A stretch of DNA of 50,272 nt from Prochlorococcus sp. AG-402-B19 (GTDB lineage: Bacteria > Cyanobacteriota > Cyanobacteriia > PCC-6307 > Cyanobiaceae), in assembly GCA_003279615.1 (NCBI GenBank), contig QCHM01000012.1, positions 1 through 50,272 on the forward strand. The letters are read 5' to 3'. Under the pieces are notes generated by a model. The model was not told the DNA's origin, made no database searches, and was given only the letters and a program-made list of their open reading frames with translations. Positions 30,124 to 33,135 of the stretch are shown here, one piece after another. The position numbers and the translations under genes were made by a program. Within the stretch, counting starts at the first letter, position 1; each line of letters begins with the position of its first letter.

Positions 30124-31161
30124 CTAGTTTTTATACAAATCTTTGAGTAGTTGATAGGCTTCGTTTAGTTTTCTCATACTTTCATTTGATCCACCCGCGT
30201 CAGGGTGATTGGAAAGAGCTTTTTCTTTATAGGCATCTCTAATAAAAGATAGGGTTAAAGATGATCCAGCCTTTGTTGGTAAACCCAAAAGCTTTAGAGC
30301 ACCATGAACTGTCATAGTTGACTCAAGGGTTTGAAATGAAGTCACATTTTGACTACGTTTGAATTTATTAACGAATCTACGAATGAGTGTCGGAATTCGA
30401 CTTCTTAGGTTTTTAGTTGAAAAGGGGTCTTCGAGGGCGCCTGCCAAAATAACGACATCATCAAATGTTAGTGCATCGATTCTCCACTCACTACAATAAG
30501 TATTAAGCATTTTACAGGCAGCATTCCATGTAAAAGGTATATTTTCTGTACCATCTACATTTGGCCAAATATCTCTAGCAAGCCAAATCATCGAAGCCTC
30601 AAGAACGCTCTCAGTGGGTTTTTGTCCATAAAGATAGATCCAATGTTTTTCAGCAGCATCTTTAGCTTTTAATAAATCCTCAATATCAATAATAGTTATT
30701 GATGTATTATCCATATTTTTAATAGTATTATCTTTACTCAAACTTCTCCTTAGGTTTGTAGTTTGCTTTCGAATAAATCCTGGTAATTCAATGCCTGTGG
30801 AGGCAGTATCTCTTTGACAACTCTGAACATTATTAGATTTCTTATCTTCAACAACTACATTTTTAATTTCAATATTCTTATTTCCAACTATCACAAGTGC
30901 TTTTTCTTCCTTTTGACTATTATCTTGTAAATTTTGATCAGTGATTACCTGCTGATTGCTATTATCATTTAATTCGAGTTGTTCATTTTCAATTATTTCA
31001 TCATCTAAGTCTTTAGATAAAATAACTTGTAATAATCTCTCAAAAACAAGTCCTCTTCTCCGTAATCCCCACTCTTTACGAAGTCTATCGACGCCATCAA
31101 TTAGATCAATTGGTAAATCAATTGAAATTCTCTTAACGTCTTTGTCCTCCCCTTCCGCCAC
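30124..31161 (-). CDS. Ribbon-helix-helix plus J-domain fusion protein
   Basis: A 345-residue protein with an unusual architecture. Residues 1-50 read RISIDLPIDLIDGVDRLRKEW, here in part as ISIDLPIDLIDGVDRL, the strand and first helix of a ribbon-helix-helix (CopG/Arc-like) DNA-binding domain. Residues 55-150 are low complexity and polar. Residues 155-290 form an uncharacterised domain with several Trp (EKHWIYLYGQKPTE, IWLARDIWPNV, SEWRIDALTFDD). The C-terminal 55 residues are a J-domain with ALKLLGLP, FIRDAYKEKALSNHPDAGGS containing HPD, and LNEAYQLLKDLY. It may bind DNA and recruit Hsp70 (DnaK). The function is unknown to me. Confidence 0.75.
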   Translation of the reverse strand: MAEGEDKDVKRISIDLPIDLIDGVDRLRKEWGLRRRGLVFERLLQVILSKDLDDEIIENEQLELNDNSNQQVITDQNLQDNSQKEEKALVIVGNKNIEIKNVVVEDKKSNNVQSCQRDTASTGIELPGFIRKQTTNLRRSLSKDNTIKNMDNTSITIIDIEDLLKAKDAAEKHWIYLYGQKPTESVLEASMIWLARDIWPNVDGTENIPFTWNAACKMLNTYCSEWRIDALTFDDVVILAGALEDPFSTKNLRSRIPTLIRRFVNKFKRSQNVTSFQTLESTMTVHGALKLLGLPTKAGSSLTLSFIRDAYKEKALSNHPDAGGSNESMRKLNEAYQLLKDLYKN

Positions 31162-31353
31162 ATGATCCTAATAACTAGACACATATTAATCGTCTTTTTA
31201 TTTTCAACACACGTTTAGCCCTGAATTTATATAATAAATCTCTAATTACGCAATATATTTAATTTTGGATATAATATTTAAAATTTATGATAGGGCCACA
31301 ACGACCAATATGTTTATGTATTATTTTTCTAATTAAACAAATAGTATTATTAA

Positions 31354-31533
31354 ATGAATTTCTGCTTCTCATCCAAAAACTGGAATGAAAGAAAAAAAAA
31401 TTCTCAAGTTAGGAAATTAAATTTTTTAATTTCTGTTAAAGAAGCTTATGAAAGAAAACTTGCCGCTATCAATGCATCAATTTCAAAACTCGAAGAACAA
31501 ATGAATTCAACCACACCAATTGAAGAAAGTTAA
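31354..31533 (+). CDS. Small hypothetical protein (59 residues)
   Basis: A 59-residue ORF starting MNFCFSSKNWNERKKNSQ. The second half is a helix with VKEAYERKLAAINASISKLE. Its pattern LAxIxAxxS(K/R) resembles the LAQIEATLSR core of the 51-residue paralogues in this window, but that may be helical convergence. The N terminus is basic. No membrane segment was seen. It ends one base before the stop of the convergent Ap4A phosphorylase gene, which is a reason to believe in a real, tightly packed gene. The start could be a later codon. Confidence 0.5.
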   Translation: MNFCFSSKNWNERKKNSQVRKLNFLISVKEAYERKLAAINASISKLEEQMNSTTPIEES

Positions 31534-32389: not shown

Positions 32390-32907
32390 CTTACTAATAG
32401 TCCTTTGAGTAATAATGCTTTTATATTATATAATTAATAATCTAAAATATTAGAATTTAAGTAAAATCTTATTAACAAGTAAATGATCATTAGCCTATTA
32501 TTACTTCAAAAAATGATCCTCATTGCACAAATCTCGTAATTTATGTCTGAAATGCCATTCATGGGCTAGATGAGGGGATTGTATGAAAATAAATGATTTG
32601 AGGCTTCTGAGCCGATCTATGGGGAGTTACAGACTGTTTTTTCTCTTAAAAGATATTGTCGAATAATGGTTTAAGAATTTTTCTCTAAAAAATCAAATTT
32701 AAAGAAGTTTGATAAAAAAAAAATTTAAAAGTCCCAAATTGGTTTTTCAAACCCCAATAGCTGAGATCCATTGTACTGGAATGATTTATCAAAAACAGTA
32801 AGAAATTGAAATTTATCAAATTGAAAAATATTTCAATTTTTTTGGTAAATAAGGTTGACGAAAGCAGGGGGGAAAGAGGTAAAACCTCATTCAGTAATGT
32901 GTCCTCG
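32390..32907. other. Intergenic region with a GC-richer patch
   Basis: This spacer is mostly AT-rich but holds an unusually GC-rich piece at about 32540-32635 (GGGCTAGATGAGGGG, GGCTTCTGAGCCG, TATGGGGAGTTACAGAC). The GGCT-TCTG-AGCC segment can form a small hairpin. A 27-codon ORF at 32583-32666 overlaps it. Whether this is a small RNA, a promoter region or a micro-gene cannot be decided by eye. Confidence 0.4.
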
Positions 32908-33135
32908 ATGGATTGGGACTTTTCTGAAGACGGAGCTTACCTAGCTCTATGCGATGCCTTTCGCGAAAGCGGGGAAATTTCTGCTATGGAATTTTTGGCA
33001 ACAGGTGAGGGTGCTTTTCACTTTCAGGAGCTAACTCAAAATGCTGCCGGCGAAGGGATTGATTTAAGTGACTCAGAATCAATGGCAGTATTTCAGATAG
33101 AAGTATTAGAAGCTATGGATGAAATAAGTAAATAA
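32908..33135 (+). CDS. Small acidic hypothetical protein (75 residues)
   Basis: A 75-residue protein starting MDWDFSEDGAYLALCDAF. The frame stays open upstream to 32806, but those 34 codons (MKFIKLKNISIF...) are basic, AT-driven and unlike the body, so the ATG at 32908 is preferred; a GTG three codons earlier is also possible. The body is acidic with many Glu and Asp and conserved-looking stretches ISAMEFLATGEGAFHF and FQIEVLEAMDEIS. It seems all-helical, without a recognised domain. It converges on metH. Confidence 0.7.
   Translation: MDWDFSEDGAYLALCDAFRESGEISAMEFLATGEGAFHFQELTQNAAGEGIDLSDSESMAVFQIEVLEAMDEISK

Follow-up and report, generated by a model that had tools for sequence, protein, structure and literature searches.

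What could a marine cyanobacterium do with a protein that seems to join a DNA-binding domain of the ribbon-helix-helix (RHH) type to a J-domain, the module that recruits DnaK? This question is raised by a gene in a stretch of 50,272 nucleotides from Prochlorococcus sp. AG-402-B19 (contig QCHM01000012.1), referred to here as the window. The whole gene (30124..31161, minus strand) corresponds exactly to an open reading frame that starts with GTG at position 31161. Its 345-aa product consists of an RHH-like segment (residues ~8–55), a variable linker, a helical Trp-containing region (residues ~123–283) and a J-domain (residues 284–344). The reading that we prefer, to which we give a chance close to even, is that of a class C J-domain co-chaperone that would form dimers, be anchored on DNA and deliver a DNA-bound client to DnaK.

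Conservation of the fused architecture

The original prediction held that this is not a standard architecture. We found no paper on an RHH–J-domain fusion in our literature search (the domain survey of Barriot et al. 2020 was outside its scope), and no curated family in Pfam or NCBIfam spanned the whole of the window protein or of its 46 aligned orthologues. These 46 sequences (alignment A2) were retained from 48 orthologues, after exclusion of one sequence with ambiguous residues (L096) and another with a long extra N-terminus (L097); two further alignments contained 29 (A4) and 40 (A5) of the 46. The orthologues show 35–87% identity and come from at least 23 genera, in genomes that had been picked because they had already matched.

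Conservation is unevenly distributed along the protein. Mean pairwise identity (n=46) was 0.68 for the J-domain, the most conserved part, 0.52 for the middle domain and 0.45 for the RHH segment, against 0.10–0.11 for the linkers, within which a short conserved motif, E.KALVIVG (residues 85–93; 30883..30909, minus strand), reached 0.53. Comparison of the window gene with that of L018 (NG86) gave dN and dS values of 0.065 and 0.857 for the RHH segment, 0.54 and 1.47 for the linker and 0.10 and 1.75 for the middle domain, with a dN of 0.055 and no estimable dS for the J-domain. With L016, the corresponding values were 0.10 and 0.90 (RHH), 0.32 and 0.57 (linker), 0.069 and 0.97 (middle domain) and 0.022 and 1.94 (J-domain). 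The linker is the loosest part of the protein and drifts, in contrast to the three domains, which are retained. Given the range of identities, the number of genera and the values of dN, which are far below dS in the RHH segment and the middle domain in both comparisons, the fusion is more than a chance joining. We therefore regard the architecture, as judged from the aligned sequences, as real, conserved and apparently uncharacterised. It would be a variant of the class C J-domain proteins, in which a J-domain is combined with unrelated domains. The layout of classes A and B (DnaJ, CbpA), with an N-terminal J-domain, a G/F region and C-terminal beta-sandwich domains, is absent: the J-domain is C-terminal (residues 284–344 of 345) and no DnaJ C-terminal family was matched.

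The three domains

The C-terminal J-domain (30130..30312, minus strand) is the most securely identified part of the protein, and here the prediction of a J-domain with an HPD motif is supported. It was recovered with Pfam family PF00226, with profile matches in the PDB and with Foldseek. The Pfam match of the window protein (residues 291–341, 26.8 bits, E 5.6e-6) fell just below the 27.8-bit cut-off, which was exceeded in a six-frame search of the genome (30.1 bits), and all 46 orthologues matched DnaJ and conserved the HPD motif (residues 319–321; 30199..30207, minus strand). R308, K or R312, G323, G324 and N333 are each present in 46 of the 46 sequences, and Y311 in 44, with F in the other two. 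R308, Y311 and K/R312 align through the HPD with R22, Y25 and K26 of E. coli DnaJ, which we take to be DnaK contacts. Residue 313, the equivalent of DnaJ R27, is basic in only three of the 46 orthologues, and the equivalent of R36 is A, S or T. These substitutions would be expected if the J-domain no longer contacted DnaK and the protein acted through its other domains alone. However, the J-domain is better conserved than any other part of the protein and its HPD is invariant, and we consider this explanation highly unlikely. Partners for the J-domain exist, since two nearly full-length HSP70 matches, together with two partial ones, were detected in the window's genome (87.5% complete), which also contains six J-domain matches, that of the present protein being the weakest.

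The best sequence matches in the PDB, for both the protein and the profile, were polyomavirus T antigens and TIM14, and the domain thus resembles the short HPD-x-GG J-domains of Tim14/Pam18 and these antigens. Neither Tim14/Pam18 nor the T antigens are known to contain an RHH domain or the middle domain described below, and the T antigen is an analogue only, as a J-domain carried by a DNA-binding protein. Foldseek, with the J-domain of the full-length model as the query, gave 2guz with a probability of 0.89 and 1faf with one of 0.80, both at an E-value greater than 1, and the other matches among those listed were of low probability. The full-length AlphaFold2 model was based on a shallow alignment of 26 close sequences and had a mean pLDDT of 53.5; a model of residues 123–345 alone, also based on 26 close sequences, had a mean pLDDT of 61.4, and the J-domain was modelled less well in the latter (pLDDT under 50) than in the former.

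A phage origin of the protein was considered and rejected. The protein matched 135 phage records, none covering more than 80% of the query, and the matches listed (20 of the 135) were confined to residues 263–340 or less. Similarly, 78 viral loci (L112–L189) matched the J-domain end, none of them with the RHH or middle-domain profile. Hypothetical proteins with a similar J-domain are common in phages, Klebsiella phage KP15 being one example; of the 78 viral frames, 26 have this domain close to the C-terminus and 33 close to the N-terminus.

The original prediction also described an unknown Trp-containing middle domain, and this description stands. The corresponding region is a helical domain (residues 160–283; 30313..30684, minus strand) with five conserved tryptophans, W174, W193, W199 and W212 in all 46 orthologues and W226 in 45; each position from L243 to P246 is also invariant (46/46). 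It is preceded by a conserved G-I-[ED]-L-P-G-F motif and the helix following it (residues 123–142; 30736..30795, minus strand), this helix being predicted at residues 128–141 with low confidence by AlphaFold2. Towards its end lies a basic stretch (residues 252–275, LRSRIPTLIRRFVNKFKRSQNVTS; 30337..30408, minus strand), with a mean net charge of +7.1 over the 46 orthologues. In the full-length model, helices were predicted at residues 160–178, 184–203, 212–222, 233–244 and 252–268. The pLDDT per ten-residue block was 70–86 over residues 161–270, with a dip to 53 at residues 201–210. In both models the middle helices had values of about 63–87, with dips, and the rest was poorer.

No convincing relative of the middle domain was identified in Pfam, PHROGs or the PDB. 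Several isolated matches were read as chance: in Pfam, YunG (two of 40 members, best E 0.002), PTPlike_phytase (two of 40, best 0.0074) and four further families matched by one member each of the 40; in PHROGs, five families with one member each (best 0.0041); and a single PDB chain at E 1.5. The same applies to the NCBIfam RpaB model, which matched five of the 46 whole orthologues (best 0.019) and covers residues 243–275 of the window protein. Foldseek searches of the models against the PDB and viral models gave nothing at E≤0.001, and the fold has therefore been left unnamed.

The identity of the N-terminus was less straightforward to establish. The RHH-like domain (residues 8–55; 30997..31140, minus strand) comprises the strand RISIDLP, helix A, the turn EWGLRRRG and helix B. 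Pfam gave no RHH match for the window protein, either whole or as the excised N-terminus, and NCBIfam gave a weak BrnA-antitoxin match to residues 6–39 (E 0.025). RHH_1 (PF01402, the family of CopG and NikR) was, however, matched by 29 of the 46 whole orthologues at E≤0.1 (best 1.4e-5), and by 24 of 29 excised N-termini at the same threshold (best 4.6e-7), that of the window protein not being among them. Against the PDB, the 46-orthologue profile matched the NikR RHH at E 0.0089. With the excised N-terminal profile, RHH chains (a CopG-family regulator, CopG and NikR) appeared only at E 0.15–0.89 and were outranked by some unrelated chains (best 0.015). AlphaFold2 predicted helices at residues 18–30 and 36–48, which fit an RHH fold, with a pLDDT of about 39–50 and no strand modelled. 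The predicted CopG/Arc-type N-terminus thus finds its support in the family profile, and not in the single window sequence, for which Pfam offers nothing; taken together, the evidence for an RHH-type domain is good but not overwhelming. The strand-helix-turn-helix pattern is that of RHH_1/CopG proteins, from which the window protein differs in the start of helix B, which reads RSRG and is usually SRSE-like, and in carrying two further domains, one of them new and the other a J-domain.

Within these cyanobacteria, the sequences nearest to the N-terminus belong to small RHH-like proteins that stand alone and have a W-G-[LVI]-x-x-R turn similar to that of the fusion. Three of them scored 46–64 bits with the N-terminal profile, the best of 3000 shuffles reaching 8.4 bits; of three such proteins compared with Pfam, one matched RHH_1 (E 0.0077) and two matched nothing. 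It is possible that proteins of this type were the source of the N-terminus of the fusion. Stand-alone proteins of this kind occur within the window's family (L071:2090-2347, minus strand, and L200–L205), and the first of these belongs to the window's own genome. One genome (G173) contains two near-identical copies.

Whether the RHH segment binds DNA bears directly on the function of the protein. The start of helix B, a phosphate-contact region in known RHH proteins, is almost invariant (R34 and R36 in 45 and G37 in 46 of the 46 orthologues), and the strand is also conserved (R11 in 40, S or T13 in 43 and D or E15 in 37). Residue 15 presumably faces DNA, as judged from RHH structures, and the segment as a whole is slightly acidic (mean net charge −1.3 over the 46 orthologues). 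This acidity, and the D or E at residue 15, would suit a soluble protein in which the RHH is a pairing device only, the middle domain binding a client away from DNA, and many J-proteins work as dimers. However, R34, R36, R11 and S/T13 are not obviously needed for mere pairing, and we regard a purely dimerizing role as rather improbable.

Distribution and genomic setting

A scan of contigs with short peptide patterns drawn from this protein, able to find close relatives only, yielded 25 loci, all from Prochlorococcus records and with 58–86% identity. When 99 genomes were searched, 45 of the 61 belonging to the window's family, a count that includes the genome of the window itself, had a match over all or nearly all of the protein; none of the 38 others did, and two of these gave a J-domain-only match. 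The architecture is thus conserved in other cyanobacteria, which was a point to be checked in the original prediction, and in this sample the conservation is bounded by the family. The members with larger genomes are presumably marine Synechococcus and Cyanobium types. Many of the 16 family genomes with no match are incomplete assemblies. At the level of the order, 355 of 392 genomes (completeness ≥80%) matched at E≤0.001, partial matches counted, as did 252 of 270 good-quality genomes, with full length among the matches listed. When 291 genomes of the class were searched with the 46-orthologue profile (E≤1e-8), full-length proteins were recovered from 36 genomes of the window's family, and 12 genomes of other families matched at the J-domain end only; the eight of these that were inspected have J-domain proteins in open frames of 178–556 aa, with the profile match restricted to the J end. 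The middle domain alone was matched, over its whole length, in 24 of 244 genomes of the phylum, all from the window's family. Since both the middle-domain and the full-length matches are confined to this family, the family seems to have invented both the middle domain and the fusion, within the cyanobacteria searched.

Nine genomes with no match were followed up at the locus. In two of them (G025 and G028), the flanking genes apa and pheT were absent as well as the gene, and the region is therefore probably unassembled. Another (G238) shows gaps in the assembly around the locus; a trace of 11 residues at most is left in G290 (E about 1), and nothing beyond chance was found between the neighbouring genes in G240 and G189. 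In G220, a genome of a related genus in two contigs and rated 100% complete, the gene survives as a decayed copy, which is broken by stops and has lost a large internal segment (L221, G220:C1:879500-881700). Some strains can therefore do without the gene.

In the window, the gene order is pheT (+), the J-protein gene (−), a small ORF (+), apa (−), a small ORF (+) and metH (−), the identities of pheT, apa and metH being backed by Pfam. This setting bears on the suggestion, made in the original prediction, of a plasmid-like partitioning function. Some partition proteins are RHH proteins, and a ParG/ParR-like or plasmid-maintenance protein might couple segregation to DnaK. However, the protein had no match in the plasmid collection, which also led us to reject a plasmid origin, no partition-type family, and thus no ParA-type ATPase, was found among the scanned neighbours, and the synteny with pheT, apa and metH indicates a chromosomal setting. 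We therefore abandon the partition hypothesis as barely credible.

In 30 of 44 assessable loci (45 were examined, L059 being excluded because its contig starts at the gene), the J-protein gene is immediately preceded by a DUF3370 gene on its own strand, mostly at a spacing of −16 to 46 bases, as measured from the first possible start codon. This neighbour was found in none of the 55 close-relative loci (L001–L055, some genomes being represented twice). None of the 39 genomes of the window's genus has a member of the DUF3370 family, as against 20 of the 23 genomes sampled from other families, so the genus has probably lost DUF3370 and kept the J-protein gene. We found no paper on DUF3370 in our literature search, and for both reasons the mechanism proposed below is not built on it. 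A SigF-like sigma factor gene is present upstream of the DUF3370 and J-protein genes in L065–L068, the only four loci with flanks long enough to show it, and an allophycocyanin-alpha-like gene occurs nearby in 23 of 45 loci.

The upstream region is shared with a divergent small conserved ORF of 59 aa (31354..31533, plus strand), which has no Pfam match and has a counterpart in 65 of the 70 loci searched, not all of them independent. By eye, it is still present in loci that have lost the J-protein gene. The other small ORF (32806-33135, plus strand; 109 aa as called) is conserved beside metH in several loci and had no match in Pfam or NCBIfam. An alignment of 25 upstream regions revealed a block in the 5′ leader that is conserved among close relatives (31194..31212, minus strand) and may be a cis element.

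These features raise the possibility of a transcription regulator, the RHH dimer sitting at one or a few promoters, perhaps including its own, shared with the divergent ORF, and the DnaK recruited by the J-domain loading or stripping it according to chaperone demand. HspR, a DnaK-linked regulator, provides a model, and small RHH proteins are often operator-binding regulators; the conserved blocks of the leader, which is shared with the divergent ORF, and the sigma factor gene upstream in L065–L068 are also in keeping with this idea. However, the block that was tested has one exact copy in the genome, and its only other occurrence, with 3 mismatches, is no more than was found with the control. 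Moreover, the leader does not have the same form in loci with DUF3370 just upstream, and none of the 55 close-relative loci, which keep the J-protein gene, has a sigma factor gene or the DUF3370 gene. A promoter scan gave 5 sites, as compared with a shuffle mean of 11.7, and no regulon was found by the upstream alignment, the genome search with the one block or the promoter scan. We therefore consider a regulatory role to be unlikely.

A proposed DNA-tethered co-chaperone and its known counterparts

The nearest functional precedent is CbpA of E. coli, which serves DnaK as a co-chaperone and also binds DNA in the nucleoid (PMC3547828, PMC4063869). The likeness lies in the combination, in one chain, of a DnaK-recruiting J-domain, DNA binding and dimer formation (PMC3547828), the recruitment of DnaK and the latter two being putative in the window protein. 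The order of the parts differs. The J-domain of CbpA is N-terminal and DNA is bound by the linker and the first C-terminal domain (PMC3547828), whereas the J-domain of the window protein is C-terminal and its putative DNA binder is the N-terminal RHH; moreover, no DnaJ/CbpA-type C-terminal domain was matched in the window protein or its orthologues. A second comparison is provided by CdbA of Myxococcus xanthus, an RHH nucleoid protein functionally connected to PilZ-DnaK chaperones (PMC10313047). In CdbA, however, the link is an indirect one between separate proteins, and no J-domain fusion was noted (PMC10313047).

The co-chaperone that we favour could act in four steps. The RHH would first bring two chains together, as RHH folds generally do. 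DNA would then be held by the two strands, once paired, and by the beginning of helix B with its many arginines, whether at particular sites or across much of the nucleoid. At the other end of a flexible linker, the helical domain with its conserved tryptophans may bind a client on or near the DNA, perhaps a regulator, a polymerase or a replication factor of the lineage; alternatively, its basic stretch may add a contact with DNA or RNA. Finally, the J-domain would dock DnaK and stimulate ATP hydrolysis, causing DnaK to grip, remodel or release the client.

Several observations argue for the tethered co-chaperone: the J-domain found in every orthologue, with most of its key residues kept, and the two nearly full-length HSP70 matches in the genome; the RHH_1 matches of the orthologues and the conserved residues of the strand and helix B; the occurrence of the fusion in most genomes of the family and the retention of the domains beside a drifting linker; the persistence of the gene in the window's genus without its DUF3370 neighbour; and the precedent of CbpA. 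Other observations argue against it, namely the acidity of the RHH segment and its D or E15, the lack of a Pfam RHH match in the window protein and of a significant PDB RHH match with the N-terminal profile, the low pLDDT of the RHH helices, the replacement of the R27 and R36 equivalents and the failure to find a regulon. Some genomes also have no copy of the gene, so its task can be spared there. DNA binding, the existence of a client and DnaK stimulation are inferred from sequence, and it is reasonable to suppose that the protein links DNA to DnaK.

More tentatively, we suggest that the protein may be a lineage-specific Hsp70 recruiter, retained in most of its family, fixed to the chromosome by its own RHH and equipped with a new Trp-rich client-binding fold, that remodels protein–DNA complexes in a dominant group of marine phototrophs. 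This would be a DNA-addressed J-protein of a kind that we have not found described in bacteria. If this is true, a DNA-binding domain within the protein would address Hsp70 to chosen sites of a bacterial chromosome, and a role would be assigned to a gene that most sampled members of a group known for very small genomes have retained. The protein also brings to light a lineage-restricted domain for which our searches gave no relative.
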